DNA of 64,000 bases from Deltaproteobacteria bacterium (GTDB taxonomy: Bacteria; Desulfobacterota; Dissulfuribacteria; Dissulfuribacterales; QOAL01), in the NCBI GenBank assembly GCA_026986785.1, contig JALSNW010000051.1:62001-126000 (forward strand), written 5' to 3'. Under the pieces are notes generated by a model that worked only from the letters and a program-made list of their open reading frames with translations, searched no databases and was not told the DNA's origin. Every line of letters starts with the position of its first letter. Position 1 is the stretch's first letter. Shown one piece after another: positions 37,609 through 61,362 of the stretch. Position numbers and translations under genes: made by a program.

Positions 37609-37994
37609 TCGAAGAGTTAATCACTTGATGGTTCGTTTAGGCCAATGACTATCACCAAATCTTTTGGTGGCAGAACTCCAATATATCCCCTCCGGAGGTA
37701 GCCATCCCTATATGTTGCCATAGGGCAGCCATCTTTTGGCACTTGTAGGAAAATACATTCACGTTTTTTTACACACCCCCTGTTCGTATTGTAAAACCCC
37801 CTTTAACACCAGCGTTTTTTGCCTATTTTTGCATGGTTTTTTGGCATGCTATTAGCTACTTCATCAAATCTGTTTAATGGATTTTTTCAAAGCCTAAAGA
37901 CCTGTTTGGGGAAAAAATGGCTTCCGAACATATCCAGGTATGTCTGTTGCTCTTAATGATCTAAACAGACCGTCATCAACCAGGAGGAAGTGAT
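37609..37994. other. Intergenic region upstream of the FN3/malectin-like gene
   Basis: Carries two small hairpins, CACCAAA/TTTTGGTG (37653-37669) and CCCTAT/ATAGGG near 37707-37726, the direct repeat AGCCATC, and two ACCCCCT motifs 20 bases apart (about 37774 and 37794) ahead of a sigma-54 promoter. Further down, the leader contains the 7-bp stem GTCTGTT/AACAGAC. No known riboswitch consensus fits. Confidence 0.45.
37841..37857 (+). promoter_or_regulatory. Sigma-54 promoter of the FN3/malectin-like gene
   Basis: TTGGCATGCTATTAGCT: GG at 37843-37844 and GC at 37855-37856 give exact N10 spacing. It matches TGGCA at -24 and T-GC at -12. Predicted start near 37868 gives a 127-base leader. Confidence 0.65.
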
Positions 37995-39752
37995 ATGAAA
38001 ATCCGCTGCTTTCATAAAAAATATATAAAAATTAATGGATTGAGTGCGATGCTCCCAGTTGCAAGCGAAGGTTTAAAACTTTTGCCCTATAAAAAAAGTT
38101 TTAAATTGCCCTTAAATATTTTTTGTCTATTTGTGGCCTTCTGTTTTTTTGGGCCCCAGGTTATCATGGCCGCCAGTGTCACGTTGAGCTGGAATAGAAA
38201 TCAGGAGCCGGATATAGCTGGTTACAAGATCTTTTATGGCACAGCCTCGCATCAATACAGCCAATCCGAGACAATCAACGATAGTCGGCACAGCCCTCTG
38301 GAGATTTCCCATGTCATCTCCAATCTGGACGACGGCAAGACCTATTATTTTGCAGTAAAGGCCTTTGATTTGGCAGGTCAGACGAGTGATTTCTCTGATG
38401 AGATATCCATAACCATCCCTTCGTCTACAAGTGGTTCTGGAGGCGATGAAGGCTCAGGTGGTTCTGATGATTCTGGCTCTACGGGTGACAGCGGAGGAGA
38501 TGACGATACGGTTAGTGGCCCTATGGAGTTCAAGGTGAACTTCCAGCCAGCCAATGCCCCGATTCCCAGTGGTTTTGCTGCAGATTCGGGCCAGTGGTAC
38601 AGCTCCTCGACAGGTTACGGCTGGGTGGGCCAGAGACCCCAAGTCTATGATCTCAACAGCAGAAGATCAAAGGATCAGCAGCACGACACCCTGGCCAAGG
38701 TGAACAGCAGTATGAAGTGGGAGCTTGCCGTACCCGCAGGCGACTACGAGGTAACTGTCTGTATAGGCAGCCCTACGAACCAATATCTATTTCAGGGTGT
38801 TTATGTGGAAGGAAATAGGCTTTTTTATAACACAACGACATGGGCTGGAAAGTGGATGGAAAAGACTACAAAAGTACATGTCTCAGATGGCAAACTCACC
38901 CTGAGCTTCAAGAATATCCTAAGGTTCTTTGTTGCCCTCGATTATGTGATTGTCCGCAGTGAGGATACAGGCGTTTCCGTTCATCAAAATCAACCTCCAA
39001 TCCCTGTAATCTCCACGTCTACCAGAAGTGGCCAGGCACCTTTTGAAGTTCAGTTCAATGGTAGTGGTTCCTCTGATCCGGATGGTAGTATTGTCCTCTA
39101 TCATTGGGATTTTGGGGATGGTGAAACTCTCAATGGTGCGGTTACCAGCCATGTATTTTCGTCTCCAGGTTCTTATACCGTAAGGCTTACAGTAAAAGAC
39201 GACGATGGCCTGTCTCGTTCCAAGACTGTAACTATTACGGCTACTGGTTCTGATGATTCTGGCTCTACGGGTGACAGCGGAGGAGATGACGATACGGTTA
39301 GTGGCCCTATGGAGTTCAAGGTGAACTTCCAGCCAGCCAATGCCCCGATTCCCAGTGGTTTTGCTGCAGATTCGGGCCAGTGGTACAGCTCCTCGACAGG
39401 TTACGGCTGGGTGGGCCAGAGACCCCAAGTCTATGATCTCAACAGCAGAAGATCAAAGGATCAGCAGCACGACACCCTGGCCAAGGTGAACAGCAGTATG
39501 AAGTGGGAGCTTGCCGTACCCGCAGGCGACTACGAGGTGACCGTTTGTGTGGGGAGTGCCACAGCTCCTTATTTCTTCCAGGGTGTACAGGTTGAGGGAA
39601 AGAGCTTCTTCTCTGGGCTGACTACCTTCCCTGGTCATTGGGAAGAAAAGACAAGACAAGTCCATGTGTCCGATGGCAAGCTCACGCTTAAATTCTTTAC
39701 CATCTCCAGATCCTTCGTGGCCCTGGATTATGTGATCGTCAAGAAAAAGTAA
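37995..39752 (+). CDS. Secreted multidomain protein: FN3, malectin-like, PKD, malectin-like
   Basis: 585 residues. AGGAGGAAG precedes ATG 37995. A long basic N-terminal stretch leads to the hydrophobic export segment (about 38-58, ending VIMA). Next come a fibronectin type III domain (about 60-140), a Gly/Ser/Asp linker, a malectin-like beta-sandwich (about 175-310), a PKD domain (about 330-415: GSGSSDPDGSIVLYHWDFGDG), the same linker again, and a second malectin-like module to the end. The two linker-plus-module N-halves are encoded by identical DNA while their C-halves differ. All modules bind carbohydrate or protein outside the cell. No sorting signal was found at the C-terminus. Confidence 0.85.
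   Translation: MKIRCFHKKYIKINGLSAMLPVASEGLKLLPYKKSFKLPLNIFCLFVAFCFFGPQVIMAASVTLSWNRNQEPDIAGYKIFYGTASHQYSQSETINDSRHSPLEISHVISNLDDGKTYYFAVKAFDLAGQTSDFSDEISITIPSSTSGSGGDEGSGGSDDSGSTGDSGGDDDTVSGPMEFKVNFQPANAPIPSGFAADSGQWYSSSTGYGWVGQRPQVYDLNSRRSKDQQHDTLAKVNSSMKWELAVPAGDYEVTVCIGSPTNQYLFQGVYVEGNRLFYNTTTWAGKWMEKTTKVHVSDGKLTLSFKNILRFFVALDYVIVRSEDTGVSVHQNQPPIPVISTSTRSGQAPFEVQFNGSGSSDPDGSIVLYHWDFGDGETLNGAVTSHVFSSPGSYTVRLTVKDDDGLSRSKTVTITATGSDDSGSTGDSGGDDDTVSGPMEFKVNFQPANAPIPSGFAADSGQWYSSSTGYGWVGQRPQVYDLNSRRSKDQQHDTLAKVNSSMKWELAVPAGDYEVTVCVGSATAPYFFQGVQVEGKSFFSGLTTFPGHWEEKTRQVHVSDGKLTLKFFTISRSFVALDYVIVKKK
38459..38752 (+). repeat. 294-bp perfect direct repeat, copy 1
   Basis: Identical base for base to 39245-39538, offset 786. 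It encodes the acidic linker and the first half of the malectin-like module. Both edges are sharp: similarity drops immediately outside. Confidence 0.97.
39245..39538 (+). repeat. 294-bp perfect direct repeat, copy 2
   Basis: Second copy of the repeat starting at 38459. Synonymous positions are also identical, so homogenisation by gene conversion or duplication was recent. Confidence 0.97.
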
Positions 39753-39785
39753 GGCCTTTTCTCTATATGAAATAGAGACATGGGC

Positions 39786-39822
39786 GAAAAGGAGGCGTCA
39801 TCATGAGGTGAGCCTCCTTTTC
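39786..39822. terminator. Bidirectional terminator between FN3/malectin-like gene and GT2
   Basis: An 11-bp perfect stem GAAAAGGAGGC / GCCTCCTTTTC (39786-39796, 39812-39822) with a 15-base loop. It touches the stop codon of the convergent glycosyltransferase. Confidence 0.8.
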
Positions 39823-40966
39823 TATTCAATATAATCCTGACCTTTGCCAAAGTGCCTTGTGTGTCTCCATCCCTTGCCTCTATCCCAAATGGCCTGCATA
39901 AGATGCATCACCTGGATGCCCATCTGCCAGAATGGGAACACGACTGCAATGGGGCCTATTCGATAAGGCTTAAAGACAAGGCTTGGAAATATCCATGCCA
40001 GCCAAGGGAAAAGGAGGAAGGGGGTCATCGTCTCCCAACTAAATGGGCAAAGCATGTGATTCAAGAGTGCAGATATGAATGCAAGCCAAAACACTGGTTT
40101 TGGCAATAGAGCCCAGATGACAGAAATGGCGAAAAGGGGTTTCCTCTTCAGTAGCGAGATGCATTCTATTGCTATTGCCATTCGACCTCTCAACCATCTG
40201 CTCCCTTGGACAACACCTGATTTGAGCGCAATAGGCTTTTCATCCAAGACCCAGATGCAGTCGTACCAGTGGATGGGTATGTTCTTTTCGCAGAGCCTGA
40301 TTTGGTAGTAGATGTCCTCTACAAGGCCCATGTCTTCTGTCCAAGGTGCCCTGTGAACCAATATGTCTTTCCTGAACAGCATACCTGTCCCGCACAGGTT
40401 GGCACTGAGTCCAAATACTGCACGTCCTCTTTGGATGACCCTATTTAAGAATGCATATATTACAGTGATCATCTTGGTTGTCATGGAGTGTCCTGGGTTG
40501 GAAGGCCGAACCTCCACCTGGACAACTTCTGGGCTCAATGCCAATACATGGGGCAGCAGGTGCCAGAAATTGGCCGACAGTACGTTGTCTGCATCCATCA
40601 CCATCAGATATCGCCAGTGCTGGTTTTTGTAGTGCTGAAGCGCAGCCGAGAGTGCCTTGGACTTGGTCGAGTTGGCACCCTTGTCGAAAATAAATGCCTC
40701 GAAGCCTGCTCTTTTACTATGTCAAGGGTGCGATCTGTACAATGGTCAGCAATCACCACCACCCTGGCAGGACAATCCTTCAGGGAAGAAAGGGTATGGC
40801 CTATAACCATTTCTTCATTATGGGCCGGTATGAGAAGGAGTATATCTGGGAGGTGGTTTCTGCGTCTCAACCTATTTGAGAAAAAAGGGGATGCGACGAG
40901 GAGTAGAAATATCGTGGCATCCCATATTAATAAGAGAGAGAAAAAAAGATAAAAGATGGCCTGCAT
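39822..40966 (-). pseudogene. Glycosyltransferase family 2, interrupted by a -1 frameshift
   Basis: Two reading frames together make one GT2 of about 380 residues. The first (from ATG 40966) has a membrane anchor and LPDILLLIPAHNEE, then loses frame after ADHCTDRTLDIVKEQ. The second continues FEAFIFDKGANSTKSKAL, MDADN (metal-binding DXD-like) and QGSRWLRGR, then ends in membrane helices. The break lies at about 40704-40708, where one base is missing in a GG run. The flanking protein reads perfectly, so this is either a very recent mutation or an assembly error. If intact it is a processive-type membrane GT2 for exopolysaccharide. Confidence 0.85.
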
Positions 40967-41002
40967 CTGCCTAAATCAGTCCACTATTCAATGGGGTACG
41001 GA

Positions 41003-44000
41003 TCATAATCGTTGTTCCAATATCTCCATGAACGTCTTGGTTGTCTTTCGAATCATCTGTTCCACATTGTATTTTTCCTCTACGAGTTTTCTCCTCTTGG
41101 GCCCATGAGACCTCCAAAAATCCCTTCGTTCCAGCATGTCTTCCATGGCCTCGACCAGGGGATCCAGATTGTCAGCTCTGGTCTCCTGGGTATAGATTCC
41201 CAGGTTTTCACCCTTGACATTGGTTATCGAGCCAAAGCTATTGGGGACGAGGATGCCAATCCAGTCTTCTGTCAGGACGTCTGCCGCCCCCCCGACATCT
41301 GTCAGGATGACTGGAAGACCGAAATACAGTGCCTCGGTCTTGGCGATGCTCCAACCCTCCACTATGGAAGGCATCAACAAGCAATCCGCAAGCCTGTAGA
41401 GATCGGCCTTCTCTTTGATGAAACCTGGAAAGAGGATTTTTTCTTCCAGGCCGGATTCGGCAATTCTCTGCTTTAGTCCCTGGAAGTAGGTAGGATCCAT
41501 TACATTCCCTGCACATAGGATTCTTGCCTCAGGGTAGGTCTCGAGTATCCTTGAAAGGGCACTTATCATGATATGGTGATTTTTTCTACCATCTATGGAT
41601 GCCGGGTTCAGGAAGACGAAATCCCTTTCAGACAGGCCAAGTTTCGATCTCGTGATGCTTGGAGGTATCTGAGAGACGAGTTTGAGTAGTACAGTATCAA
41701 CACCATTCGGGATCACGGTTATCTTGTCCTTGGGGATGGTGAGTACCTTGGTCAAATACTCTCTTACAGATGATGAAACGGCTATGTAGTGGGCAATGTA
41801 TTTGTCTTTTCGTATGAAGTCCTGTCTTTGAGCCTTGTCGAACCAGACATAGGCGTTGTGGATAGTGGCAACAATTGGAATATCGAGTTTTTCGGTCAAA
41901 TCGAGGCTGAAATCACAATAGTGGGAATTTATCAGGCAGATTTTTCTCTGTTTCAAGAAATTTTCATACGTCTCAAGATCTCCTTTAAAGACTTGTACAT
42001 CCAAACCCTGTCTTTGGGCATTCTCTGCCATCAATCCCCCGTCTTTGGCACATGTTATTGTGACATCGTACATGTTTTTGTCGAATTGTGATGCCAAGTT
42101 GAAGACTACCTCCTCGAGTCCTCCCTTGTCCAAGGAGTTTATTTCAAGGGCAATGGCCCTCCGGTCTTTGGATGGCCTCAGAGGTGTAGGAGGTTTGGGG
42201 AAGAAGGCCTTTTTCCCGCCACATTTCTTGTCTATGAACAGGTCGTTGTTGGCTGCAGCAAATAGAAATCTTGCCAAGGCCCCAGGAGAGTGTTTGTCCA
42301 GATAAGCGTCACATGTGGTCTTGTCTGGTTTGCATTTCAAGGCCTTTTCTATGATGGAGTGAATCTTTCGGTCTTGGCAGAGACCAAACCAATACGGTGC
42401 CTCGGGTGAGTATCTGAGGCTATCTGGGGCCAGAAATGGCTTGGCAATGGTGAGTGAATATGCATACTTGTGAGTTATATCTGTGATAGAATATGTTTCT
42501 TGGACAGGCATCCATAGGGCAGATACGGCCCCTGCAAGGGGATATAGCTGCTCCAGGGAGTCGAAATGGAAAAAGTGTATATTTGTCCTATTGAAGAGAT
42601 GCCCGTGTCTTTTTTTGTCTTTTTTGTCCTGAGAGGCAAAGACAAGATCCACTTCTTTGAAGGCATCTGCAGTCTCGGATACCAAGTCTTCATCCACAGC
42701 ATCAAGGCTGTCTATGGAGAGGAGGATATGGCCACCTTGCCAGGGAAACTGCCAAATGGGGAACTTGTCCTCCCGTGCCTTTCTCAGTAGATCCGGTCCA
42801 CACAATGGAATCGGAACCAAGATGGTGTCTTCCTTTTGGAGAATGGATAGGTCATTGAAGGTGGTATGGTCATCCAACAGGAGCTTTCTAAGGCTCATAC
42901 TTTCTTTGAGATGTGCAGGGGGGCTGTCACCATGTTTTGAGAGCAGGCCGCACCAGATGTCCAGCTTTTCCGTCAGACCGTCAGTAAGTTTGGATAAGCC
43001 CTCTATCCAATCGGTCAATATGAAGACTTTTCCCCCTGTATTCTGCATTAGGTTGGCACGATATGAGGAGATGGAAACGTGGGGCAGCACGAGTTTGCCA
43101 TGGAACTCAATGTCTTCGGGGATGACTACCCGAAAGCCGCAGCCCTCTTCCTGTAATCCCTCGGCGAGACTGAACAGTGGACTTTTGGATTTGTCCAGGA
43201 CATCCCGAGATAGGATCAGTGTAAGAAATTTTTCCCTATAGTATTGTCTGCGATATCTATGGTCTTCTATGAGTTTTTTCACGTTGTGGCAGATATGGGT
43301 GTCTCCATATCTGCCACTCAATGAGTTCTTGTGTACCCTATATTGATAAAGGACCTTGTCAGAATCACATTTTTCAATATTAAAAAGCTCCTTGGTCCTC
43401 AGCCAATAATCGTAATCTTCTGTGCCAAGGAGCCTGGGATCATAGGGGCCGAGCGCCTGGGCCACATCCTGCCTGTACATGAATGCGGCATTGATAAAGT
43501 TGTCTGGTACTGCGTCAAGCGCCTTGATTTCAGAAGGCAAATTCAGGATGCTCGATCCCTTGGATACCTGATTCTGTATCCTATAATCGGAATCCGTAAG
43601 GGGTTGTCCATCTTCCCCAATGACCTCCACATTGCCATAGGTCAGATCCACGTCTGGCCTCTTGAACAGGAAACAGGCCAATGTCTCTATCTGCCAAGGC
43701 AGCATTATGTTGTCAGCCGATGTCCAGGAATAGAAGACCCCCTTCGCAAAACGAAATCCATTGGTCAATGCCCCTGGCAATTTCTGATTTTCCTGGGTGA
43801 GAAACGTGATGTTTTTCCTGCCTATGTAAGGTGCTAGAACCTGCTGTAAGTCGTCTGTAGAACCATCATCTACGATGACGATCTGGATGTTTGGATAGGT
43901 CTGGTTCAATATACTCTCAACAGCAAGCCTGGCACTTGCTGCATGATTGTAAATAGGCAGCACTACGGTAATCAAAGGTGGCCTGTGGATGAGACAAGGG

Positions 44001-45583: not shown

Positions 45584-45954
45584 GGATTCTTAGTCCTTCT
45601 CCTGCATCGGTTCTGAAAAAAGGGAAAATGAATCTCCCCATACTAATTTATGGCAATGGTTAGGATCTTCTTTTATCTTGTCTATCCCTTGCATACTTAA
45701 TAAGAAAGACCGAAGGATAAGAGGCACTGGCCCTGGATTATTGCCTTTTGGGGGAAGAAGCTGTTCCCTGTGAGGCCAGGAAATGTTAACAGAACTTTAT
45801 TGGAAAACCAAATGGCTAATTTTGGCCAGCTCTTCTTTGATGTGTTTATGTTCATATACGGTTTTTTGTCCATCTCGCCTCAACAGTGCATTTGCTGGGG
45901 TGTGTACGTGCTGGAGATTATTTTGTCCTCAAAGGGAGAAACAACAGAACAGTA
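45584..45954. other. Divergent intergenic region between two glycosyltransferase genes
   Basis: AT-leaning sequence between the giant glycosyltransferase (minus) and the TuaH-like gene (plus). I see no terminator, RNA gene, repeat or convincing promoter in it. Confidence 0.4.
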
Positions 45955-47148: not shown

Positions 47149-47185
47149 GGCCTTGATCATGTAGGAGCACAGAAGGAGCAGGATA

Positions 47186-48325: not shown

Positions 48326-48428
48326 TTATGGAACACTCAACCAATATCTTGGCTATATCTGACCAGGTGTTAAAGGCGTCTGGTTTTATAACATCCTGGA
48401 ATAAAAACATTTTTACGATTATGTTCTC

Positions 48429-48444
48429 TGGCATGAATCCTGCT
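48429..48444 (+). promoter_or_regulatory. Sigma-54 promoter of the CAP-domain gene
   Basis: CTGGCATGAATCCTGCT: GG at 48430-48431, GC at 48442-48443, exact N10 spacing, matching -24 TGGCA and -12 TGC. Predicted transcription start near 48455, 36 bases before ATG 48491. Confidence 0.7.
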
Positions 48445-48490: not shown

Positions 48491-49462
48491 ATGAAGGGTC
48501 TTATCTCTACAATCGTATGTCTTTTGGCAATCTATTTGACGATGCCGGAATTGGGGGCCTTTGCTTCCTGTGCTGATGAAGGACCAGAAGCAAATGCCAC
48601 CATTCGGGAGGCCGAGGACTGGATTGTAAACTATATAAATGAACTCAGGACTGAGCCAGAATCGGCCCTTCATGAGCTTGGCTTGAATGCCACGCTGTCT
48701 CTACCAATTCATGGGGATATGATCTGTAATTGGTATGGGTGTTTTTATCAAGAGTTGGAGACATATCCCCTGGCCAGGTCTGCTATCCTGGATGGTTTTG
48801 CCTCAACCTGGGCAGATGAGATGGCTGAGGAGGGCTTTTTTTCCTATGAGGCCCCTGATGGATCATCTCTGGAGGATTTTATAAAGGAGACAGGTTATCC
48901 GTCATCCAACGGTGCCCAGATAATCTCGGCTGTTCTTATCAAGGACTACAAGAGTCCTTGCCAGGCAGTCAGGGTCATTATGCAAAATCTGCTCGAAAGT
49001 GGCATATCTGACAACAAGGCAACAGGCAATGCCTCATCCTTGATAGACTACCACTATGATGCTGTAGGAGTGGCCCTCAAGCCTGCCCTGTTTTCCATGG
49101 ACGACGGCACGATTGTTGGGGCCTACTATCTGGTGATATTGCTCGATAGGCCCTTGGAGATCTTTCGTTCGCGTATGGTGCATTGTGGCCACCTTTATTC
49201 TGATGTCAATAACGATGGGCTTTACGAAGAGGGAGAGGGGATAAAGGGGGCATTGTTTTATGATGACAACGGTGCTATCTTGGCCAGGTCATATAGTAAG
49301 GGCAGGTTCTGTCTGGAGCAGTCGGTGGAACAGTGGACCTGGCACATTGGAAACAGGTCTCTTCCTAGTGTAGATCTGCACGGGATCTCTACCTGGAGCA
49401 ATGGCGAGTTGAGGCAGGATATAGACTTTGACAGGCTTCATGGCAAGCTTGGTGATGAATGA
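48491..49462 (+). CDS. Secreted CAP (SCP/PR1)-domain protein
   Basis: 323 residues with a signal peptide (ending LGAFAS before CADEGPE). The CAP-like features are IVNYINELRTEPESALHEL, a helix AILDGFASTWADEMAEEGFF, ETGYPSSNGAQII, and a final strand VVGAYYLVILLD. A C-terminal extension (about 235-323) has a Ca-site-like DVNNDGLYEEGEG and could be a small beta domain. Bacterial CAP proteins are extracellular with mostly unknown activity. GGGGAG lies 5 bases before ATG. The first gene after a sigma-54 promoter, followed 28 bases later by a lipoprotein gene. Confidence 0.7.
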   Translation: MKGLISTIVCLLAIYLTMPELGAFASCADEGPEANATIREAEDWIVNYINELRTEPESALHELGLNATLSLPIHGDMICNWYGCFYQELETYPLARSAILDGFASTWADEMAEEGFFSYEAPDGSSLEDFIKETGYPSSNGAQIISAVLIKDYKSPCQAVRVIMQNLLESGISDNKATGNASSLIDYHYDAVGVALKPALFSMDDGTIVGAYYLVILLDRPLEIFRSRMVHCGHLYSDVNNDGLYEEGEGIKGALFYDDNGAILARSYSKGRFCLEQSVEQWTWHIGNRSLPSVDLHGISTWSNGELRQDIDFDRLHGKLGDE

Positions 49463-49490: not shown

Positions 49491-49982
49491 ATGAAAGAGA
49501 TATATCAGAGAGATCTACTTGGTAGCTATTTGATCAATGCAGTTTTGGGCAGTTCATGCAGGTATTGTTTTGCTGGTTTGTGTCTTCTGGTAGTAGCGTT
49601 ATTGTCTTCTTGTGCAGGTCTCAATCTGCATCCTGATCCCCAGTCGGATGTACGTAAGGCTGCCGAAAATTATTGGAGTGCCAGGGTTGCCGGGGATTGG
49701 GTTACATGCTATAAGTATGAAGAGGTTTCTAAACTTCAGGAAGAATCATTGTCCCAATATGTGCACCGTCAGGGTAGCCTCATCTATAAATCCGCCCTTG
49801 TAACAGGCGTTGAAATGAAAGATCCTGATCATGCATTGGTGCATGTTTCTTTGGAATATTGTTTACCGGCCTTTGGTACGAGTCATGCTTTCAAGACTGA
49901 TGTGAAGGATACATGGGTAAAAATTGATGGAAAATGGTATCATCATGTCGAAAAGAGATTGATGGACAAGATGAAGAGCTAA
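49491..49982 (+). CDS. Putative lipoprotein, NTF2-like fold
   Basis: 163 residues. The N-terminal extension of about 25 residues precedes the hydrophobic export segment and lipobox LLSSC. The mature part (VRKAAENYWSARVAGDWVTCYKYE ... WVKIDGKWYHHVEK, split here) has the helix-then-sheet pattern of small NTF2-like lipoproteins. Function unknown. It lies in the presumed sigma-54 operon with the CAP gene. A later start cannot be excluded, because no strong ribosome binding site precedes ATG 49491. Confidence 0.6.
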   Translation: MKEIYQRDLLGSYLINAVLGSSCRYCFAGLCLLVVALLSSCAGLNLHPDPQSDVRKAAENYWSARVAGDWVTCYKYEEVSKLQEESLSQYVHRQGSLIYKSALVTGVEMKDPDHALVHVSLEYCLPAFGTSHAFKTDVKDTWVKIDGKWYHHVEKRLMDKMKS

Positions 49983-50083: not shown

Positions 50084-51118
50084 ATGAAGAAGTTTACATC
50101 TTTGGGAGTAGCAATCTTTGCTGCATTGATGATGGTTGGTATTACCAGCCAGGCAAACGCCGTTACACTCGGCGTCTATGACAAGGGCCTTCTCGTGCCC
50201 ATCACCACCCATGGCGCACCTGGAATCGATACCGCTGTTGGTATCCTCTGTTCCCAGGATACAACTGTCTATTGGACTTTCTTCGATAAACAGTCCAATC
50301 CGATCGTTGACAGTGACTTCCCCTGTACAAAGAACGATCTCTATCATTTTTCTTTGAACAACGAGGCCCCTAATACAGAAGGAGTCGAGGGCTATCTGGT
50401 ATTTACCGCAAATGGCGGAATAAAGGCTGCTGACAAGACAGCTATCCTCAACCCAAACGACAACAAGAGCATTTCAGGAAATGCATTCCTCATCGATACC
50501 AATAGCGATGATGCCATCTTCCTGCCAGTCGTTCCCCTCTGTATTACTGATTATGCAGCTGGTACCGACCTTTCCGCTATGACAAACACCTCAGTTGTGA
50601 GCCTGCACTATGGTTTTACAAGGGGAGATAACTGCAATATTGATGTGCGCTACTGGCTCGATCCCCAGTACGGTGCATGCACAAACGTTATCCTCTGGAC
50701 CACCCAGTGCCTGAACCAGTACTGGCAGTGGGGCGGAGTAAATCCAGTGCCTGGAAACTGCTATTTCGATACGGATCCAAACAATCCTACCCCTTGGATC
50801 CTCAAGTGTCACCTGAACGTGTATGATGACGAAGAGCACAGGACCTCTGTGAGCATTCCTCTCCAGTGCGAGGTTACAAACTTCTTCCCATCAAATATCA
50901 CAGGTTGGCCAAACTATATAGATGGCTTCATCCGCATCCCCTCCACGGATCTGATGCCTAATGCTGGCGACGGTGCCTTTGGCTTCTCCTATGTGACAAG
51001 CACCACCTTCAAGGCTGCCCAGTCACTTCTTGCCAGCGAAAGCTGCGGACAGGTGAATTGTGGTGCCCATAGGGCTGCTGGAGGAAGCACCCCCAAACCC
51101 TGTGGATGTGGCCAGTAA
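50084..51118 (+). CDS. Abundant secreted protein of unknown family, Cys-containing
   Basis: 344 residues. The signal peptide ends in QANA before VTLGVYDKG. The mature protein is rich in Asn, Asp, Thr, Tyr and Trp, looks all-beta, and carries 13 cysteines, four of them clustered at the C-terminus (CGQVNC and KPCGCGQ). I recognise no family. Near-consensus AGGAGGTTT, an A-rich leader and a perfect terminator suggest high expression as a single-gene unit. It could be a surface layer, filament or adhesin subunit; that is inference. It lies inside the polysaccharide cluster, next to the CAP and lipoprotein genes. Confidence 0.8.
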   Translation: MKKFTSLGVAIFAALMMVGITSQANAVTLGVYDKGLLVPITTHGAPGIDTAVGILCSQDTTVYWTFFDKQSNPIVDSDFPCTKNDLYHFSLNNEAPNTEGVEGYLVFTANGGIKAADKTAILNPNDNKSISGNAFLIDTNSDDAIFLPVVPLCITDYAAGTDLSAMTNTSVVSLHYGFTRGDNCNIDVRYWLDPQYGACTNVILWTTQCLNQYWQWGGVNPVPGNCYFDTDPNNPTPWILKCHLNVYDDEEHRTSVSIPLQCEVTNFFPSNITGWPNYIDGFIRIPSTDLMPNAGDGAFGFSYVTSTTFKAAQSLLASESCGQVNCGAHRAAGGSTPKPCGCGQ

Positions 51119-51153
51119 TATCGGCTGACATAGAGCCACGATAGAGTAACCGA

Positions 51154-51187
51154 AGCGGCTGTCTTTTCCAGACAGCCGCTTTTTTTC
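51154..51187 (+). terminator. Rho-independent terminator after the secreted protein gene
   Basis: A 10-bp perfect GC-rich stem AGCGGCTGTC / GACAGCCGCT, a 7-base loop and seven or more T. It is one of the strongest terminators in the window. Confidence 0.92.
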
Positions 51188-51366
51188 TCCTTTGTTCCAT
51201 CCTATCCACAAAAAAATTCGATCCATACCAGGCCTGTTTCACTATCCGGGAATAGATTAGATCATTGATACTTGCTTTTTGCCTTTCCCTGATGCCTCCA
51301 TCGTGGTAAAAAGTCGTGGATCTGGGCCTGATGATAAGGTGCGGGAAATCTTTTTAAAAGGGATCG

Positions 51367-52170
51367 ATGAACTATCTAAGGACACTTGCTGCAAATATCT
51401 TCAAGAACAGGTACTTGTTGCTGCTTTGGACGAAGAGAGAGATCAAGGCGCGTTATGCAGGGACAGCAGCAGGTGTTATATGGGCAACACTTGTGCCTCT
51501 TTGCACCATTGCCCTATACTACATATTTTTTTCCCTCGTGCTCAAGATAAAGATACCAGAGGTTGCTGGAAGCTCTGGTTATTTCTTCTACCTCCTGGCT
51601 GGATTAATACCCTGGATGTCCCTATCCGAGGGCTTGGGGCGCTCTGCATCCTGTCTGGTGGATTATGGTTTCCTTGTCCAGAAGATGGTATTCCCCATGG
51701 ATATCATCCCTGCTACAGTGGTCATCGTGTCCTTGGTACCTCAAGTGGTTGGCTTTTTCATATATGTTGCAATGTTGTCCCTTGGGGGGCTCGTGGAATG
51801 GTACAGGCTCCTATGGGTGCCTGTCATTTTCTTGTGCCAAGTGATGTTGATGCTGGGTATGGCCTATCTGCTATCTGCCCTTGGAGCAGTCTTTCGCGAT
51901 TCCATCCAGGCAGTTGGAATACTGCTTCAATTTTGGTTTTATCTCACTCCCATACTCTATCCCCTCAAGATGGTGCCAGAGTCCTTCAGGCCTTTCATTC
52001 TGTGGTCTAACCCACTAACCCCCTTGGTCATGGGCTACCAGTGGGCATTTCTTGGGATTGCCATGCCGGAATGGATGCCGGCAATGATGGTCTTGTGGAC
52101 TTTTCTTGCCCTGCTCATGGGCCCATGCCTTTTTTATATCGTTGCCCCAACCCTTGCAGACCAGGTATGA
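51367..52170 (+). CDS. wzm: O-antigen/polysaccharide ABC exporter permease
   Basis: 267 residues with six transmembrane helices of the ABC-2 type. LLLLWTKREIKARYAGTAAGVIW at the start of the domain (here read across two segments) and FWFYLTPILYPLKMVPE near the end are typical of Wzm/KpsM/RfbA. It forms the channel that carries undecaprenyl-linked glycan across the inner membrane. Its stop overlaps the start of the ATPase gene by 4 bases (ATGA). AAAAGGG lies just upstream of ATG 51367. Confidence 0.93.
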   Translation: MNYLRTLAANIFKNRYLLLLWTKREIKARYAGTAAGVIWATLVPLCTIALYYIFFSLVLKIKIPEVAGSSGYFFYLLAGLIPWMSLSEGLGRSASCLVDYGFLVQKMVFPMDIIPATVVIVSLVPQVVGFFIYVAMLSLGGLVEWYRLLWVPVIFLCQVMLMLGMAYLLSALGAVFRDSIQAVGILLQFWFYLTPILYPLKMVPESFRPFILWSNPLTPLVMGYQWAFLGIAMPEWMPAMMVLWTFLALLMGPCLFYIVAPTLADQV

Positions 52171-53405
52171 AGACCACCTTTGTACCAGAAGAATACCCTG
52201 TGGTATTAAGGGATGTCTCCAAGGTCTACCGGCTCTATGCCAAGCCAGTTGACCGGATGAAGGAACTCCTTCTCAGGAGGCCCTTTCACAGGGAATTCTG
52301 GGCCCTAAAAGATATAGGCTTCACACTCAAGAGGTCGGAGACCTTCGGTGTAATAGGGGAAAATGGGGCTGGGAAGAGTACCCTTTTGAAGATAATTGCT
52401 GGAACCATCCTCCCCACTTCTGGCTCTGTCGAGGTAAAGGGTAAGGTTTCGGCCCTTTTGGAGCTTGGTGCAGCATTCCATCCCGATCTCTCTGGCAGGG
52501 AAAACGTATTCATGCAGGCGGCCATCCTTGGGCTTTCCCAAAGGGAGATAGAGGAGCGATACAAGGACATAGTAGAATTTTCTGAACTGGATGAGGCTAC
52601 CATGGAGCGTCCTGTCAAGACCTATTCCTCTGGCATGTTCGTGCGTCTTGGTTTTGCCATTGCCACGTGCGTAAGCCCTGAAGTCCTGGTTGTGGACGAG
52701 GCCCTTTCCGTGGGGGATATACATTTCCAGAAAAAGAGCCTTGATAGGATCATGGGGTTTAGAAAGGCAGGGAAGACCATCCTGTTTTGCTCGCACAACA
52801 TGTATCAGGTGAGAAGTCTCTGTCAGCGGGCCCTTTGGCTCAAGGATGGCCAGATGCAGGCCTTTGGTCCCACAGAAGACGTAGTAGCAGAATATGAGGC
52901 CTATCAGAGAAAGAAGGAAAAGGAAGCGGGAGAGGAAGAGAGGTCAATATCCATAGTAGAGCCAGAGGCAAAGCCAGCAACTCAAGCCCCTCCAGTCAAG
53001 ATAATCGACATATATATCGTTGATTCCAAGGGCAATCGTTGCAACAGGCTGATTTCCCATGAGGATTTTATCATAGTCATAGAGGTGCAGGTACTGGAGC
53101 CAGATAGGCCTTTTCATCTCGGTGCAGTTATCCAGAGAGACGATGGCATCAATGTGTTCGTCACCACGACCAAACAGCAGGGGTATGATCCTGTTGTCGG
53201 GCGTGAAGTAGTAACAGCACATCTGTCTCTACCACAGCTGGCCCTTCTTTCAGGTGATTATTCCCTATTTATCTATGTGTTGGACGATCACGGGATACAG
53301 GTTCTCGATATGGCAGAAGGGGTTTATCCCTTTTCTATCAGAGCGGCTACTTCAGAGATGGGGATCGTGGCATTGAAACACAAATGGCACATAAAGACCC
53401 TGTAG
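52167..53405 (+). CDS. wzt: O-antigen/polysaccharide ABC exporter ATPase with C-terminal glycan-binding domain
   Basis: 412 residues from ATG 52167. The nucleotide-binding domain has Walker A GENGAGKST (64-72), signature YSSGMFVRLGFAIA and Walker B VLVVDEALSVGD. A charged linker (about 255-275) leads to a C-terminal Wzt-type beta-sandwich (about 285-412). In O9a/O12-type systems this domain binds the modified non-reducing end of the polymer. That matches the presence of methyltransferase genes nearby which could cap the chain. The longer upstream frame is a shadow of wzm. Confidence 0.94.
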   Translation: MKTTFVPEEYPVVLRDVSKVYRLYAKPVDRMKELLLRRPFHREFWALKDIGFTLKRSETFGVIGENGAGKSTLLKIIAGTILPTSGSVEVKGKVSALLELGAAFHPDLSGRENVFMQAAILGLSQREIEERYKDIVEFSELDEATMERPVKTYSSGMFVRLGFAIATCVSPEVLVVDEALSVGDIHFQKKSLDRIMGFRKAGKTILFCSHNMYQVRSLCQRALWLKDGQMQAFGPTEDVVAEYEAYQRKKEKEAGEEERSISIVEPEAKPATQAPPVKIIDIYIVDSKGNRCNRLISHEDFIIVIEVQVLEPDRPFHLGAVIQRDDGINVFVTTTKQQGYDPVVGREVVTAHLSLPQLALLSGDYSLFIYVLDDHGIQVLDMAEGVYPFSIRAATSEMGIVALKHKWHIKTL

Positions 53406-53414
53406 TCCTTATTC

Positions 53415-54389: not shown

Positions 54390-54401
54390 GAGAAGAGATC
54401 A

Positions 54402-55232: not shown

Positions 55233-55482
55233 CCGTATCCTCTATTTCACATGTTGGGAATATAAGAGAGTTTCGAAGAAGTTACAATGTGTGCTTCATA
55301 AATGAAAGGGCCTTGGACAATATTGAACAATTGGGATTAAGCTCCTCTATCCATTGTTTTTTTGGTTTTCAGCCCATGCCATCTGGATTACTATACTGCT
55401 GTTTTGTCGTTGCTAATTTTTTGGAAACAATAAGAGTAGGGTTGGTCATGATCTGATGCCAAGGGTGTGGTAACCCAACGGT

Positions 55483-56268
55483 ATGAAGTGGATTTTTGGG
55501 CCTGAAAAGGAGCTGGAATTGGCGACAAGAGATGAATTCGAAGGCTTCAGATATGCCTATCGTATAGATATGGCCCAGGATTATACCCCTACCAAGGTGG
55601 TAAGGCTGGTAGGAAAGTACAAAGAGGTCTTGGAGTTTGGCTGTGGGCCAGGACACATGTCAAAGGTGTTGACCGAGGAGTTGGGTTGTAGGGTCACTGG
55701 CATCGAGCTCGATGAGGAGGCGGCAGAGAATGCCCAAAAGTATTGCCAAGAGGTCTACAATATCGACCTCGATCAGATAGATATCTTGGGTATCATGGGC
55801 AATAGAAAATTCGACGTGCTTCTTTTTGCGGATATCCTGGAACACCTGAAGTCGCCTGAAACCCTACTTTCCACATCTGCCAAGCTCCTGGCAAAAGGGG
55901 GCCATGTTGTTGCCTCTGTCCCAAACGTGGGCTATTGTGGCCTTGTTGCCGAACTACTGGTTGGCAGGTTTCAATACAGGGACCTGGGCCTTCTCGACAA
56001 GACCCATATACGTTTTTTCACCAGGCAAGGCCTTGTTTCCATGTTCGAACAATGTGGCCTCGTTATAACAGATCTGGACGGTTATGAAGTGCCTCTTGAG
56101 CTTTCAGAATTCAAGGGGGCGTTCAAAGGCCTGCCACGTGCTGTTACTGATTTTATCACGAGCCAGAAGGATTCCATGGTCTATCAATTCATACTCAAGG
56201 CCTCTATCCAGCAGAGGTACAACCTGTTGAGTCGGATCAAGCAATGTATCATCAGAGACAAGGAGTGA
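55483..56268 (+). CDS. Class I SAM-dependent methyltransferase
   Basis: 261 residues. Motif I VLEFGCGPGHMSKVL, acidic loop GIELDEEAAENAQ, and motif FDVLLFADILEHLKSPETLL place it in the Methyltransf_11/23 group; the later DKTHIRFFTRQGLVSMFEQCG is frequent in polysaccharide-cluster members. Probable target is a glycan, by context only. No clear ribosome binding site precedes ATG 55483. Three bases separate it from the FG-GAP lipoprotein gene, so both are co-translated. Confidence 0.85.
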   Translation: MKWIFGPEKELELATRDEFEGFRYAYRIDMAQDYTPTKVVRLVGKYKEVLEFGCGPGHMSKVLTEELGCRVTGIELDEEAAENAQKYCQEVYNIDLDQIDILGIMGNRKFDVLLFADILEHLKSPETLLSTSAKLLAKGGHVVASVPNVGYCGLVAELLVGRFQYRDLGLLDKTHIRFFTRQGLVSMFEQCGLVITDLDGYEVPLELSEFKGAFKGLPRAVTDFITSQKDSMVYQFILKASIQQRYNLLSRIKQCIIRDKE

Positions 56269-56271
56269 ATC

Positions 56272-57444
56272 ATGCTATCTTTTGTGAGGAATGTCTGTCT
56301 TCTTTGGCTATGTTTTGTCCCGTTCGTCTTGGTTGCCGGGTGTACGGGTGTGGCAACCAAGGCCAGGGAGACAAAGGTCCAGAACGAGGGGCCTGTATAT
56401 CCGGCACATCATGTGGAATTCGATGCAGGCAGGGACCCTGAGAATATCGTTGCTGCGGATTTTAACAATGACGGTATCTTGGATGTGGCAATCAGTTCCC
56501 ATGGGGATAGCTGTGTAAAGATATTCCTTGGAAAAGGGCATCGTGGCTTCCATCTGGCCACAGTCATCCCCAAGGCTGTTGTGGGTTTCCATCCCGACTG
56601 TCTTGCAGCTACGGACTGGGACAAGGACGGCTATATAGACCTGGTCCTTGCGGCCGAAGGCCGCAGTAAGGTGATTTGGCTTCGAAACAAGGGAGGAAAC
56701 GGCTTTGAAAAGGCTGGAGCTGTACCTGTGAAGTATCCGCCAAAGGGCATAGCCCTTTCCGATCTTGACGGAGACGGAAACATGGATATCGTCCTGGGGC
56801 CTTACAGCCGCGGCAATGTGATGGTGTTATGGGGCAAGGCCCAGCCGCGTTTTGAATTCCAGGCATCCGAGATACCGGCAGAAAGGTTTGCATCTTCTGT
56901 CTCCATCGCAGATTGGAATAGTGATGGCCGCCCGGATGTGTTCTGGACAGAGACAGAAAAATACAACGTCAAGGTTGCTTTGAATCAGGGTAACAGACGG
57001 TTTCATACAAAGATATTGTTTCACCGTTCCCCCATGATTTTGGAGCTGCCGAGAAGTGTTGTGACTGCGGATGTAGACGGAGATGGTTGCGTGGATGCCT
57101 TGTCTCCTCTTGAGATTGGGAAGGCAGCAATAATACTACACGGTGACTGTAAAGGAAATGTCAAAGATCTGGAAACCATCAAGGCACCTGCCTGGGGCTA
57201 TAGAGGTATAGGGGCCATTGCTGCTTCTCCTGGGCATCCGGCCTACATCGCCCTTGGAGAAAAATTGAGGATCTTTATAGGCGTCAGAAACAAGGCGGGT
57301 AAATGGGATCTCCATGAATATAAGGGAGGCAAAGTGCCTGAGGCCTTCGTCTTCAAAGATATGGACAAGGATGGCAACATGGATGTGCTATTTGTTGATT
57401 CGGCTGGGGATACGGCCAGCCTCTACTACGGTCCATTGACATAA
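56272..57444 (+). CDS. FG-GAP/VCBS-repeat lipoprotein
   Basis: 390 residues. A lipobox VAGC ends the signal sequence. The rest is a beta-propeller of FG-GAP/VCBS repeats with recurring calcium loops: DFNNDGILDVAI, DWDKDGYIDLVL, DLDGDGNMDIVL, DWNSDGRPDVFW, DVDGDGCVDAL, DMDKDGNMDVLF. Six such loops fit a seven-bladed propeller with one degenerate blade. Probably a surface or periplasmic scaffold binding glycan or protein. It lies between the methyltransferase and a parvulin gene 16 bases downstream. Confidence 0.88.
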   Translation: MLSFVRNVCLLWLCFVPFVLVAGCTGVATKARETKVQNEGPVYPAHHVEFDAGRDPENIVAADFNNDGILDVAISSHGDSCVKIFLGKGHRGFHLATVIPKAVVGFHPDCLAATDWDKDGYIDLVLAAEGRSKVIWLRNKGGNGFEKAGAVPVKYPPKGIALSDLDGDGNMDIVLGPYSRGNVMVLWGKAQPRFEFQASEIPAERFASSVSIADWNSDGRPDVFWTETEKYNVKVALNQGNRRFHTKILFHRSPMILELPRSVVTADVDGDGCVDALSPLEIGKAAIILHGDCKGNVKDLETIKAPAWGYRGIGAIAASPGHPAYIALGEKLRIFIGVRNKAGKWDLHEYKGGKVPEAFVFKDMDKDGNMDVLFVDSAGDTASLYYGPLT

Positions 57445-57460
57445 AGGAGGTTTTATCCAT

Positions 57461-58339
57461 ATGGGCAATTGCGTTAGATATTTCATCGTCATAGTAACCT
57501 TGGCCAGTTTTCTTGTCATACCAGGAACTTCGTTTTCAGCAGGTGATCTTAAAATAAGTAAAGCCGAGGCCAGCCATGTAGTGGCCGAGGTCCATGGTAA
57601 GAAGATAACAGTACATGACATCAGGGAATTTGCCACAAACTCCCCAGCCTTTTATGCCTATCTCGAACTCCCTGGGGGGCCAAACAAGATCTTGAATGAC
57701 ATGATTCTCAGGGAGTTGCTCTACCTGGAGGGACATGACATGAAGATCCCTGAAAATCCTGAAAAGCCAAAGGAGGTATACGTAAGGAAGGTATTGAATA
57801 GACTGTTTCCCAAAGAGCCAAAATTTACCGAGGACGAACTGAGAAGATTTTACGACGAACATCCCGAACTCTTCAGTACGCCCAAGTTCATTCGTGTATC
57901 TGTTGTCCGTGTATATGTCAAAAGAGACGGCGAGGCCAAGGCCTTGGAGAAGATACAGCAGGCCCAGGAGCTTTTGAAGGCTGGACAAGCCTTCGAAGAT
58001 GTGGCTGCGAGGTTTTCTGAGGACCCCTTGAGCAGAGACAGGAAGGGGGACCTTGGCTTTTTGCCAGACAATGAAATAAAGCCCCCAAGTCTCAGGAAGC
58101 TTCTCGAATCCATGAAAAAGGGCCAGCTCAGCGATGTCCAGAGGATAGACGGTTATTTTGCAATATTCAAGGTCACGGATATAAGGGGGCCTGTAGTGGA
58201 GCCCTTTAACAAGAAATTCGTTGAGGAAAAGGCCAAGGATTACCTGAAGGAAAAGGCCATAAATGATATAAGATCAAGACTGGCAAAGAAGTGGGGAGTG
58301 AAATATATAGATCCTGCTTTTGCACCAGATACCGAATAG
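57461..58339 (+). CDS. Periplasmic parvulin-type peptidyl-prolyl isomerase
   Basis: 292 residues. A signal peptide ends near GTSFSA. A SurA_N-like helical part (VVAEVHGKKITVHDIREF ... RELLYLEG) is followed by a rotamase domain with FSTPKFIRVSVVRVYV, DVAARFSEDPLSRDRKGDLGF and QRIDGYFAIFKVTDI. It helps fold secreted or outer-membrane proteins. AAAGGAGG lies about 11 bases before the ATG, and the gene is the last of the methyltransferase-lipoprotein-parvulin operon, which ends at a strong terminator. Confidence 0.9.
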   Translation: MGNCVRYFIVIVTLASFLVIPGTSFSAGDLKISKAEASHVVAEVHGKKITVHDIREFATNSPAFYAYLELPGGPNKILNDMILRELLYLEGHDMKIPENPEKPKEVYVRKVLNRLFPKEPKFTEDELRRFYDEHPELFSTPKFIRVSVVRVYVKRDGEAKALEKIQQAQELLKAGQAFEDVAARFSEDPLSRDRKGDLGFLPDNEIKPPSLRKLLESMKKGQLSDVQRIDGYFAIFKVTDIRGPVVEPFNKKFVEEKAKDYLKEKAINDIRSRLAKKWGVKYIDPAFAPDTE

Positions 58340-58361
58340 ACAAGAAACTCTTGGAGAAAAA

Positions 58362-58394
58362 GAAAGGGGCAGTAAGTACCTGCCCCTTTCTTTT
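58362..58394. terminator. Bidirectional terminator between parvulin and metalloprotease genes
   Basis: An 11-bp perfect stem GAAAGGGGCAG / CTGCCCCTTTC (58362-58372, 58380-58390) with T run after and A run before. It serves both convergent genes. Confidence 0.9.
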
Positions 58395-58426
58395 GGTGGA
58401 GGTAGCATTGGAGCCAAAGGCTATAT

Positions 58427-61312
58427 TTATTGGGAGAATTCCACCGTGTAGTCTTCCACTTCTCCAAATAGGAATGTACCACATGCCTTTGGAGGTACTA
58501 TTCTGGACATGGCTACACGCATCCTTGTAGATCCTGTGGCATTACTTGCCACGGTAAAGCCACCAGAAAGGGCTGTATTTTTCATCCCGGAAAATACCAG
58601 CTCTCCTGGGTCAGAGAAATCCCCGTCCTTGTTGTAATCTATCCATACAATCCAGTATTCAGGATACGCCGTAGCTGCAAAACCTGGAGTCAATATCACG
58701 GATACAGTCTGGCCAGGTGTTAACAATACGGTCTTACTGAGAAAATCACTGTATGGCGATGGGCCAGATTCACTTGAGAAGTTTCCTATCTGGACCTTGC
58801 CTATCCACTCAGCCGCCTGGCTGTTTCCCTGTGATGTGCAGTAGCTAACCACCTTTTCGGTTACATGGATATAGGAGGTCTTGGTCTTACTGTCTGAACC
58901 CACGCTGTTGGAGACGCTGAGAGTGACTGGGTAATCTCCAGGACTGTTATATGTTATCGTTGGGTTTTCCTGAGTGCTGGATGAGGGGCTACCTCCCTGA
59001 AATGTCCATGACCAAGAAGTCGGATTGTTGCTTGACTGGTCAATGAAATGTACCTGACTACCCGTCTGGACATAGGTATGGTCTGCTGAAAAGTCTGCTA
59101 CTGGGGCCATTGGTTCTGGAGGTGGCCCAAATGTGACGGTGTAGTCTTCCACTTCTCCATACTTGAAAGGGCCACAGGCAGGGGGATAGGCCTTGTATTG
59201 CATGGATACCCTCATGCGTGTAGATCCCGAGGCAGAAGATGGGACAGTAAACGATCCTGACACAGATGCTGAGGCAGAACCGGAGAATACATTTTCTCCT
59301 GGGTCAGAGAAGTCCCCGTCCTTGTTGTAGTCGATCCAGACCTTCCAGTACTCAGGATAAGAATAACTGGCAAAACCTGGAGTCAGGCGAAGTGATACTG
59401 CCTGGCCTGGGGTAAGGGATATGTTTTTCAAGGTATAGTCCGAGTAATGAGATTGGTTAGACGTATTGGTGAAGCTACCGACCTGTACCTTGCTTATCCA
59501 CTCGTACTGCTGGCTGTCACCCTGGGAAGAGCAATAATCAGTTGATGAATCTCCACCATCATCACCGCCTCCACTGATATTATCCACGAAAGTTACGGTG
59601 TAGTCTTCCACTTCTCCATATCTGAAAGAGCCACAGGCAGGGGGATAGGCCTTGTATTGCATGGATACCCTCATGCGTGTAGATCCCGAGGCAGAGGCAC
59701 TAACAACAAAAGCCCCCAGTTTTGCAGTAGAGGCATAGCCGTAGAATACATTTTCTCCTGGGTCAGAGAAGTCCCCGTCCTTGTTGTAGTCGATCCAGAC
59801 CTTCCAGTACTCATTGTATGCCTTACCAGAAAATCCTGGCGTGAGATTTAGGGTAACACTTGAACCTATTGGAAGATCGATGTTTTTCGAGGTGAAATCC
59901 GAATATTTGGAGGCACCCGAACTGTTTGAAAAGCTGCCTACCTGTACCTTGCTTATCCACTCGTACTGCTGGCTATCACCCTGGGATGTGCAGTAGCTTG
60001 TATCGCCAGAACCGTCGTCTCCACCACCTCCAGAGAATACGGACTGCCTGTAGCTTGCCACAGTAGCCATTGTCTGACGAATGGTCTCGGCATTGTCTGC
60101 CTCGCCGGCTACACCTATGGCATAACCCTGGTATGTGATATCAGGGTTGGAAAAGTAAGGTATGGTTGGCGAGTTATAGCTCATGATGGTTGCAAATATA
60201 CCTGGCTTGTCATATCCATAGGAATAATCAAACAGCCCTGGCATAAGTTTACCATTGCTGCCATAAGCATGGGCCTTGTCATGCTGGCAGCCCAGATTGT
60301 GACCTATCTCATGGGCCAGGGTGTAGTCGTCACAATAGTAACCAGAGGCCGAGCCTGTCTGGATGACAGAAAAGCCGTATCCCTGGGTACCTGATGGATT
60401 GTTTACAGCTTGAAGGAGCCAGGCAAGGCCACAGTATTGATTGTCCTCGGTGAAGGCCCTTACGAGGCATACTAGATCCGCTCCATATTCGTCTCGCCAT
60501 GTTGGTACCAGGGAGAACACACCACTACTAGAGGTGAGGGCATTTAGTGCTGAATCGCTCAGAACGTTGTCTGGGTAATTGACCTCCTTTTCCCCAACGA
60601 GATTGAGTTTGAGATTGATATTGCTATTGATGTATGCCTGATTGGCAAGTTCGACCAAGGAGTTCAAAAAGGTATCCAGGGCGTCCCCAGGGTGTTTTTG
60701 GGCCACTTCAGGGGTATAGAGTAGCAATAGATCTATCGTAGTCTGCCCCTCTCCCTCTGGTACGGCATAGGAAAGGGGTGGGTTTTCCTGATCCCCTACC
60801 TCTTCGACCGGTGCCGGCAGGGCGTCGTTCATATTCTTCAAAGGCATCAGTCCCTCAAGGTCTGTGATCTTGTGGAGATTGTTCGAACCCAGGGATGTAA
60901 CTTGATATATCTGGCCATTGAAGATGATGCGTCCGGCCATGATAGAATTTTTTATGAACAAGAAGGCACTTCCGTTGCCATATTCTGGTTCTACTGTGCC
61001 TATCCAGACCAACCCGTTCTTGGTTATCCTGATTTTTTGCGTTTTGATACCGATGTAGGTACTATCGTCCAACTGGGCCATTACCTCGGTACCAGGAGTG
61101 GAATTTTTCAGGAGGGCGGCATTGGCAGTGACAATAAATGAATTGTTACTGGCAAAATTTGGCAGAGTCCCTGATGGAACAGCTGCGGATAGCGCCACGG
61201 GTGCCTTTGAAAAAAGTGCCTCTGCACTGCTGACACCAGAGACAAACAAGGAAAATAAAAGGACAAAACTCAAAAACAGACCTGAAAGATACGTTCTATA
61301 GACTCTTTTCAT
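58427..61312 (-). CDS. Secreted metzincin metalloprotease with three GEVED modules and a PKD domain
   Basis: 961 residues. Signal peptide (about 1-30), a propeptide-like region, then a zinc protease domain with HEIGHNLGCQHD at 334-345 and Met-turn IMSYNS near 375. This is a reprolysin-like metzincin. Then GEVED module 1 (about 441-580), module 2 (595-735), PKD (about 740-830) and module 3 (835-961). Each GEVED ends in FGEVEDYTV or YGEVEDYTV and holds WIDYNKDGDFSDPGE. Modules 1 and 2 are encoded by nearly identical DNA. AGGAGGTAG lies before the ATG. An extracellular protease, possibly processing surface proteins. Confidence 0.92.
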   Translation of the reverse strand: MKRVYRTYLSGLFLSFVLLFSLFVSGVSSAEALFSKAPVALSAAVPSGTLPNFASNNSFIVTANAALLKNSTPGTEVMAQLDDSTYIGIKTQKIRITKNGLVWIGTVEPEYGNGSAFLFIKNSIMAGRIIFNGQIYQVTSLGSNNLHKITDLEGLMPLKNMNDALPAPVEEVGDQENPPLSYAVPEGEGQTTIDLLLLYTPEVAQKHPGDALDTFLNSLVELANQAYINSNINLKLNLVGEKEVNYPDNVLSDSALNALTSSSGVFSLVPTWRDEYGADLVCLVRAFTEDNQYCGLAWLLQAVNNPSGTQGYGFSVIQTGSASGYYCDDYTLAHEIGHNLGCQHDKAHAYGSNGKLMPGLFDYSYGYDKPGIFATIMSYNSPTIPYFSNPDITYQGYAIGVAGEADNAETIRQTMATVASYRQSVFSGGGGDDGSGDTSYCTSQGDSQQYEWISKVQVGSFSNSSGASKYSDFTSKNIDLPIGSSVTLNLTPGFSGKAYNEYWKVWIDYNKDGDFSDPGENVFYGYASTAKLGAFVVSASASGSTRMRVSMQYKAYPPACGSFRYGEVEDYTVTFVDNISGGGDDGGDSSTDYCSSQGDSQQYEWISKVQVGSFTNTSNQSHYSDYTLKNISLTPGQAVSLRLTPGFASYSYPEYWKVWIDYNKDGDFSDPGENVFSGSASASVSGSFTVPSSASGSTRMRVSMQYKAYPPACGPFKYGEVEDYTVTFGPPPEPMAPVADFSADHTYVQTGSQVHFIDQSSNNPTSWSWTFQGGSPSSSTQENPTITYNSPGDYPVTLSVSNSVGSDSKTKTSYIHVTEKVVSYCTSQGNSQAAEWIGKVQIGNFSSESGPSPYSDFLSKTVLLTPGQTVSVILTPGFAATAYPEYWIVWIDYNKDGDFSDPGELVFSGMKNTALSGGFTVASNATGSTRMRVAMSRIVPPKACGTFLFGEVEDYTVEFSQ
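59284..59354 (-). repeat. GEVED module DNA repeat, copy 1
   Basis: 71 bases identical to 59743-59813, offset 459 (153 codons). The surrounding parts of the two modules (about 59138-59520 and 59597-59990) are also highly similar, including a shared tract around 59640-59695. This marks a fairly recent tandem module duplication. Confidence 0.9.
59743..59813 (-). repeat. GEVED module DNA repeat, copy 2
   Basis: Second copy of the tract at 59284-59354. The third module (58440-58850) is much more diverged. Confidence 0.9.
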
Positions 61313-61346
61313 AGTGATTCTACCTCCTATACTCTCCCCATGCCCA

Positions 61347-61362
61347 GCAATTGTAATGCCAA
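61347..61362 (-). promoter_or_regulatory. Sigma-54 promoter of the metalloprotease gene
   Basis: TTGGCATTACAATTGC on the minus strand: GG at 61360-61359, GC at 61348-61347, exact N10 spacing. It matches TGGCAC-N5-TTGC at all but one position. Predicted start near 61335, followed by AGGAGGTAG and ATG 61312. Confidence 0.82.

Follow-up and report, generated by a model that had tools for sequence, protein, structure and literature searches.

Three genes for unrelated secreted proteins, encoding an FN3/PKD protein, a CAP-domain protein and a metalloprotease, appeared to lie behind sigma-54 sites in the 64-kb stretch of DNA analysed here, which comes from an uncultured member of the Thermodesulfobacteriota (hereafter the window), and a preliminary description of the sequence had proposed that they reflect one switch for extracellular structures. 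The locus raises the question of whether these sites are promoters at all, and whether the genes obey a common activator. We consider it probable that they are functional sigma-54 exoprotein promoters placed around a polysaccharide export locus, with the CAP operon controlled through a dyad of its own and the other genes through separate activators.

Comparison with shuffled DNA, which had been suggested as a check, gave a divided answer. The bare GG-N10-GC pattern was uninformative and occurred at the chance rate (the window has 528 matches, and shuffles predict 507 +/- 22), whereas sites scored with a full sigma-54 matrix, whose frequencies were approximated from the published consensus, clearly exceeded chance: the 5,855 intergenic bases (~5.9 kb) of the 64-kb window contained three sites of at least 14 bits, while 300 dinucleotide-type shuffles averaged 0.06 such sites and never gave more than one. 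The sites reported before the FN3/PKD, CAP and metalloprotease genes are thereby confirmed as present and above chance. All of them display GG at -24 and GC at -12 in the TGGCAY...YTGCW context and face good start codons, lying 153, 62 and 49 bases upstream of these, respectively. Genome-wide, the pattern TGGCAY-N5-YTGCW was found 25 times and the reversed control pattern once, and genes with such sites amounted to 4/44 in the window as against 4/684 (Fisher p = 0.0007) in a systematic sample of 40 stretches covering 791 kb, or ~30% of the draft genome beyond the window. Two further sites had been overlooked, namely a proximal one at the FN3/PKD gene (37936) and one before amtB (Table 1).

Table 1. 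Sites and genes considered in this work, with positions in the window unless a locus label is given
Feature	Position	Strand	Evidence or remark
P-II gene and two ammonium transporter genes	293-631; 644-1861, 1901-3130	-	
Sigma-54 site TGGCAAAATAATTGCA before amtB	3185-3170	-	14.6 bits; internal positive control
Weak site proposed upstream of the dodecaheme cytochrome gene	35646..35661	+	7.0 bits; rejected
Distal sigma-54 site TGGCATGCTATTAGCT, FN3/PKD gene	37842..37857	+	14.1 bits; site reported earlier
Proximal sigma-54 site AGGTATGTCTGTTGCT, FN3/PKD gene	37936..37951	+	10.2 bits; degenerate in this genome
Secreted FN3/PKD protein, 585 aa, two putative malectin-like repeats	37995..39752	+	Pfam fn3, PKD
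Second dyad TGGCTAATTTTGGCCA, between divergent glycosyltransferase genes	45813..45828	.	No adjoining sigma-54 site
Dyad TGGCTATATCTGACCA, CAP operon; probably an activator (enhancer) site	48350..48365	.	Dyad searches
Sigma-54 site TGGCATGAATCCTGCT, CAP operon	48429-48444	+	16.0 bits
Secreted CAP/SCP-domain protein, 323 aa, operon gene 1	48491..49462	+	Pfam CAP, E=3e-5
Probable lipoprotein, 163 aa, operon gene 2	49491..49982	+	LLSSC lipobox by eye; conserved order
Secreted beta-rich protein, 344 aa, operon gene 3	50084..51118	+	Conserved order
ABC-2 membrane subunit, Wzm-like, polysaccharide exporter	51367..52170	+	Pfam ABC2_membrane; directly downstream of operon
ABC ATPase with Wzt C-terminal domain	52041..53405	+	Pfam ABC_tran, Wzt_C
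Secreted reprolysin-like metalloprotease, 961 aa	58427..61312	-	Pfam Reprolysin_4/5, GEVED, PKD
Sigma-54 site TGGCATTACAATTGCT, metalloprotease gene	61361-61346	-	14.9 bits
~490-aa IPPLVFLNDTP family member	L133:1235-2701	-	
~490-aa IPPLVFLNDTP family member	L134:9926-11401	+	

The CAP gene heads what is probably a single operon with the genes for the lipoprotein and the beta-rich secreted protein, followed by those of a Wzm/Wzt-type exporter, in which the true start of the ATPase gene probably lies downstream of 52041. The first product belongs to the CAP/SCP family, scoring above the cut-off of Pfam PF00188, and its model matched the SCP/CAP structures 4ifa, 2vzn and 3q2r in Foldseek with a probability of 1.00. 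No Pfam family was found above cut-off for the probable lipoprotein, nor any for the third product, whose model (pLDDT 73) gave weak matches to ASRT/TM1070-like folds. The likeness of this model to the Anabaena sensory rhodopsin transducer/TM1070 fold reached probabilities of up to 1.00, at E-values of about 0.02-0.05.

A search of 59 other genomes turned up CAP homologs in 16, and the gene order of the operon recurs across several genera and families. In 14 orthologs from same-genus to same-order genomes, mostly with 21-56% protein identity, a GG-N10-GC sigma-54 site lies 22-48 bases upstream of the first start codon in frame; orthologs within one clade are not independent, though where the proteins have diverged this far, so has the upstream DNA, the sites excepted. 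Outlying homologs in G010 and in G018 (on C164), as well as the second copy in G022, lacked the site, while a further copy in G018 was cut by the contig end. This comparison makes the predicted sigma-54 control of the CAP gene well supported. A secreted family of ~490 residues, marked by the motif IPPLVFLNDTP, adjoins the CAP operon in G004 and G008, with a sigma-54 site in both.

At the FN3/PKD gene, a sigma-54 site was kept in all 10 orthologs examined, 33-104 bases before an in-frame start, with sequences resembling RGGCAY-N4-YTTGC and a single GGAAC variant. When nine of these sequences were aligned, the invariant positions were GG, TTGC and two single A residues, and the spacer was free. 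The position-equivalent of this conserved site in our genome is 37936 and not 37842, the one originally reported. The congener G001 carries TGGCATACCGTTAGCT at the same place as the distal site, and tandem sites, 55-94 bases apart, occur also in G009, G011, G027 and G029. Site 37842 is the upstream member of a predicted tandem sigma-54 pair, and the predicted control of the FN3/PKD gene by this factor is well supported. For the CAP and FN3 genes, comparison with relatives settles the question of the predicted promoters as far as sequence can do so, and both promoters are very probably real.

The metalloprotease site is less conserved than its counterparts at CAP and FN3, and this is the only genome in which it is strong. 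Weaker sites precede the gene in G002 (CGGCCCTGAATTTGCT, 47 nt before the start) and in G018 (TGGTCTCTTATTTGCT, 58 nt), and in G017 a site was detected only at 125 bases. Sigma-54 control of this gene is plausible, and the promoter is likely to be real. A weaker site had also been proposed before the dodecaheme cytochrome gene, but it does not display the sigma-54 promoter pattern and none of 11 orthologs carried a site there, leading us to discard it.

Activation from a sigma-54 promoter might be expected to leave a second conserved element upstream of the CAP operon, and such an element was found. Unbiased dyad enumeration, allowing up to two mismatches, recovered TGGCCA-N4-TGGCCA in 8/8 CAP upstream regions (those of family f1 together with G034), against a null maximum of 4 in shuffled sets. 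With transitions allowed, a dyad score of 1.5 or better was reached in 9 of 15 CAP upstream regions and in only 2 of 800 random places. Some relatives (G041, G038 and G022) have a weak dyad or none; the G042 copy is separated from the CAP promoter downstream of it by 336 nt. Exact matches to TGGYYA-N4-TGRCCA occur at five places in the genome; two of these are intergenic, both in the window (48350 and 45813), and the second was not found in G001 or G002. We conclude that the TGGYCA-N4-TGRCCA element upstream of the CAP operon is probably an activator site. It was absent at the FN3 (best score 3.0) and metalloprotease (4.5) genes, no shared dyad emerged from a search of the FN3 upstream set, and no activator site was found upstream of either gene. 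An 11-base match common to the CAP and FN3 upstream regions, GGTGTTAAAGG, had been noticed by eye and was dropped, as the dyad searches gave it no support. The presence of a conserved dyad at CAP and its absence at the other two genes are best read as meaning that the CAP operon would have its own activator.

The response regulator at G000:C51:196918-198279 is a candidate for this role; its gene is flanked by those of a histidine kinase and a TonB-dependent receptor. In G042, an ortholog with 67% identity is found in the CAP gene cluster, where the dyad lies between a receptor gene and CAP. The regulator occurs in 17 of 17 genomes with a CAP hit (this one included), in a presence profile made for this candidate alone, but the link must be regarded as tentative because the regulator is present also in 15 genomes without a CAP hit. 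It is possible, though somewhat doubtful, that this protein is the activator of the CAP operon.

The exoprotein genes had been called scattered, a description that turned out to be misleading, as they flank a polysaccharide locus and are found together around one in relatives. CAP and FN3 genes are close together on one contig in G001, G011, G009 and G004, and in the first three of these a GEVED piece is located on the same contig. Because they occur together in relatives, these genes can be viewed as members of a conserved surface neighbourhood. Within the relatives' loci, 14 of 164 ORFs had a site of at least 11.5 bits within 110 nt, and 13 of these 14 sites precede genes with a signal-like N-terminus as judged by eye, a count biased by the choice of loci for holding CAP or FN3. 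Two adjacent minus-strand ORFs of 120 and 260 residues (window 39822-40966) correspond to the initial and subsequent portions of glycosyltransferase family 2 profiles; their coverage of separate profile parts suggests a frameshifted or split gene.

Beyond the exoproteins, RpoN is encoded in the genome together with about 19 enhancer-binding proteins of full size, not the one orphan activator that had been expected. Ammonium transporter genes such as amtB are a classical kind of sigma-54 target, and the site before amtB lies about 55 bases from its start. Other sigma-54-type sites were detected before motA-like, fliL, lpxC, pilin-like and flagellar genes, names which, lpxC excepted, were assigned from sequence by eye. 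This range of sites, amtB included, indicates that sigma-54 serves several functions in this organism. The site at lpxC (lipid A synthesis; L034, G000:C24:31349) is TGGCACACTTCCTGCT and stands directly before the gene. Two PEP-CTERM genes, G000:C14:42017 (L223) and C21:34893 (L224), have sites of 11.7 and 13.3 bits at 56 and 76 bases before the start, respectively. The proposed enrichment before signal-peptide genes was visible only as a modest trend: 7 of the 26 hits in the 791-kb sample fell before predicted signal-peptide genes, against 14% (OR 2.4, p = 0.056), the predictions being made with a home-made heuristic.

How should these sites be explained? That a short degenerate motif simply recurred by chance would agree with the behaviour of bare GG-N10-GC, but it accounts neither for the full-matrix enrichment nor for the retention of sites with variable spacers in 14 CAP and 10 FN3 orthologs; we hold it to be extremely improbable overall, refuted for CAP and FN3 by their footprints in the compared sequences, while at the metalloprotease gene a chance match is still possible. 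The conserved upstream element could alternatively belong to an RNA. In related bacteria, RNA elements of the c-di-GMP riboswitch type are frequent at genes for secreted proteins and cytochromes, and the FN3 leader is indeed conserved. Nevertheless, only GG, A and TTGC are conserved, the spacer being free to vary, and no Rfam match was obtained in the window or in the loci of ten relatives, which leaves this reading hardly any credibility.

Two other explanations accept the promoters and differ in what governs them. Control of all three genes by a single sigma-54 activator, as one exoprotein regulon, would fit their common traits: secreted products, a location close to one polysaccharide locus, and sigma-54 sites. 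However, no activator site is shared by all members, the CAP dyad being absent at the FN3 and metalloprotease genes and no common dyad having emerged from the FN3 set, and the genome offers many activators to choose from. Given that the CAP dyad is missing at the other two genes, the idea of one switch for extracellular structures is unsupported beyond the common sigma-54, and we regard a single regulon as unlikely. Membership in the PEP-CTERM/PrsK-PrsR sigma-54 regulon is less probable still. It could be argued from the genome, which has a hit for an exosortase as well as three PEP-CTERM proteins, of which two have sigma-54 sites, and from the same theme of exported proteins beside polysaccharide genes (PMC1569441). 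Against it, the three window proteins end without a PEP-CTERM tail, and neither the best activator (453 against the curated PrsR cut-off of 502.6) nor the best kinase (112 against 300 for PrsK) reached the required scores.

We therefore favour functional sigma-54 promoters with a separate activator for the CAP operon. The sites, their conservation, the operon order and the dyad can be read directly from the sequences and their comparison; from these we infer activation itself, the identity of the activator and a role in cell-surface or biofilm structure. In the proposed mechanism, sigma-54 RNA polymerase would wait as a closed complex at 48429, and an NtrC-type activator would bind the TGGYCA-N4-TGRCCA dyad ~70 bases upstream of the CAP promoter and open this complex by ATP hydrolysis, turning on the CAP-domain protein, the lipoprotein and the third secreted protein. 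The same sigma factor would serve the FN3/PKD and metalloprotease genes through other activator sites; the FN3/PKD gene carries a tandem pair of sigma-54 sites.

The preliminary description considered this set different from known cases of sigma-54 control, a view that holds only in part. Passages of Francke et al. (2011; PMC3162934) tie sigma-54 promoters to polysaccharide, lipoprotein, LPS and flagellar genes under the general idea of exterior control, the same theme as here, although these passages stress the biosynthesis and transport of exterior components, whereas our targets are CAP, FN3/PKD and metalloprotease exoproteins. In the same phylum, 37 sigma-54 operons concerned with motility and the cell exterior have been described in Desulfovibrio vulgaris (Kazakov et al. 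2015; PMC4641369), with the promoter consensus tGGcacg / tTGCt and most activators serving 1-4 operons, each with its own site. Sigma-54 likewise serves several functions there, and the term 'CAP domain' is absent from the text of that paper. Sigma-54 promoters before polysaccharide-associated exported proteins were already known from PEP-CTERM systems, where a -24/-12 motif is accompanied by a separate conserved activator motif (Haft et al. 2006; PMC1569441); RpoN dependence has been shown for pepA (PMC9850573). Our system appears to work like that regulon, with exported proteins tied to polysaccharide loci and sigma-54 combined with a separate activator motif, a likeness that does not amount to membership: unlike there, the window proteins have no tails, no PrsK or PrsR was found above the curated cut-offs, and the dyad TGGYCA-N4-TGRCCA precedes the CAP operon. 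With the exterior theme established (PMC3162934, PMC4641369), the apparent novelties are the CAP operon found across the order, the enhancer site of that operon, and the pairing of FN3 promoters in tandem.

These results illustrate that promoter matches in a single genome can be settled via comparison with relatives, and that a common sigma-54 does not mean a common switch. They add CAP-domain exoproteins to the exterior theme of sigma-54 and provide the uncultured Thermodesulfobacteriota with an exoprotein operon under predicted sigma-54 control that is deeply conserved, open to testing and equipped with a defined candidate enhancer site. More tentatively, the CAP, lipoprotein and third-protein genes, the enhancer and a two-component activator with its TonB-type receptor may possibly constitute an undescribed order-wide module, which, if true, would link the construction of a surface layer associated with polysaccharide to an external signal.
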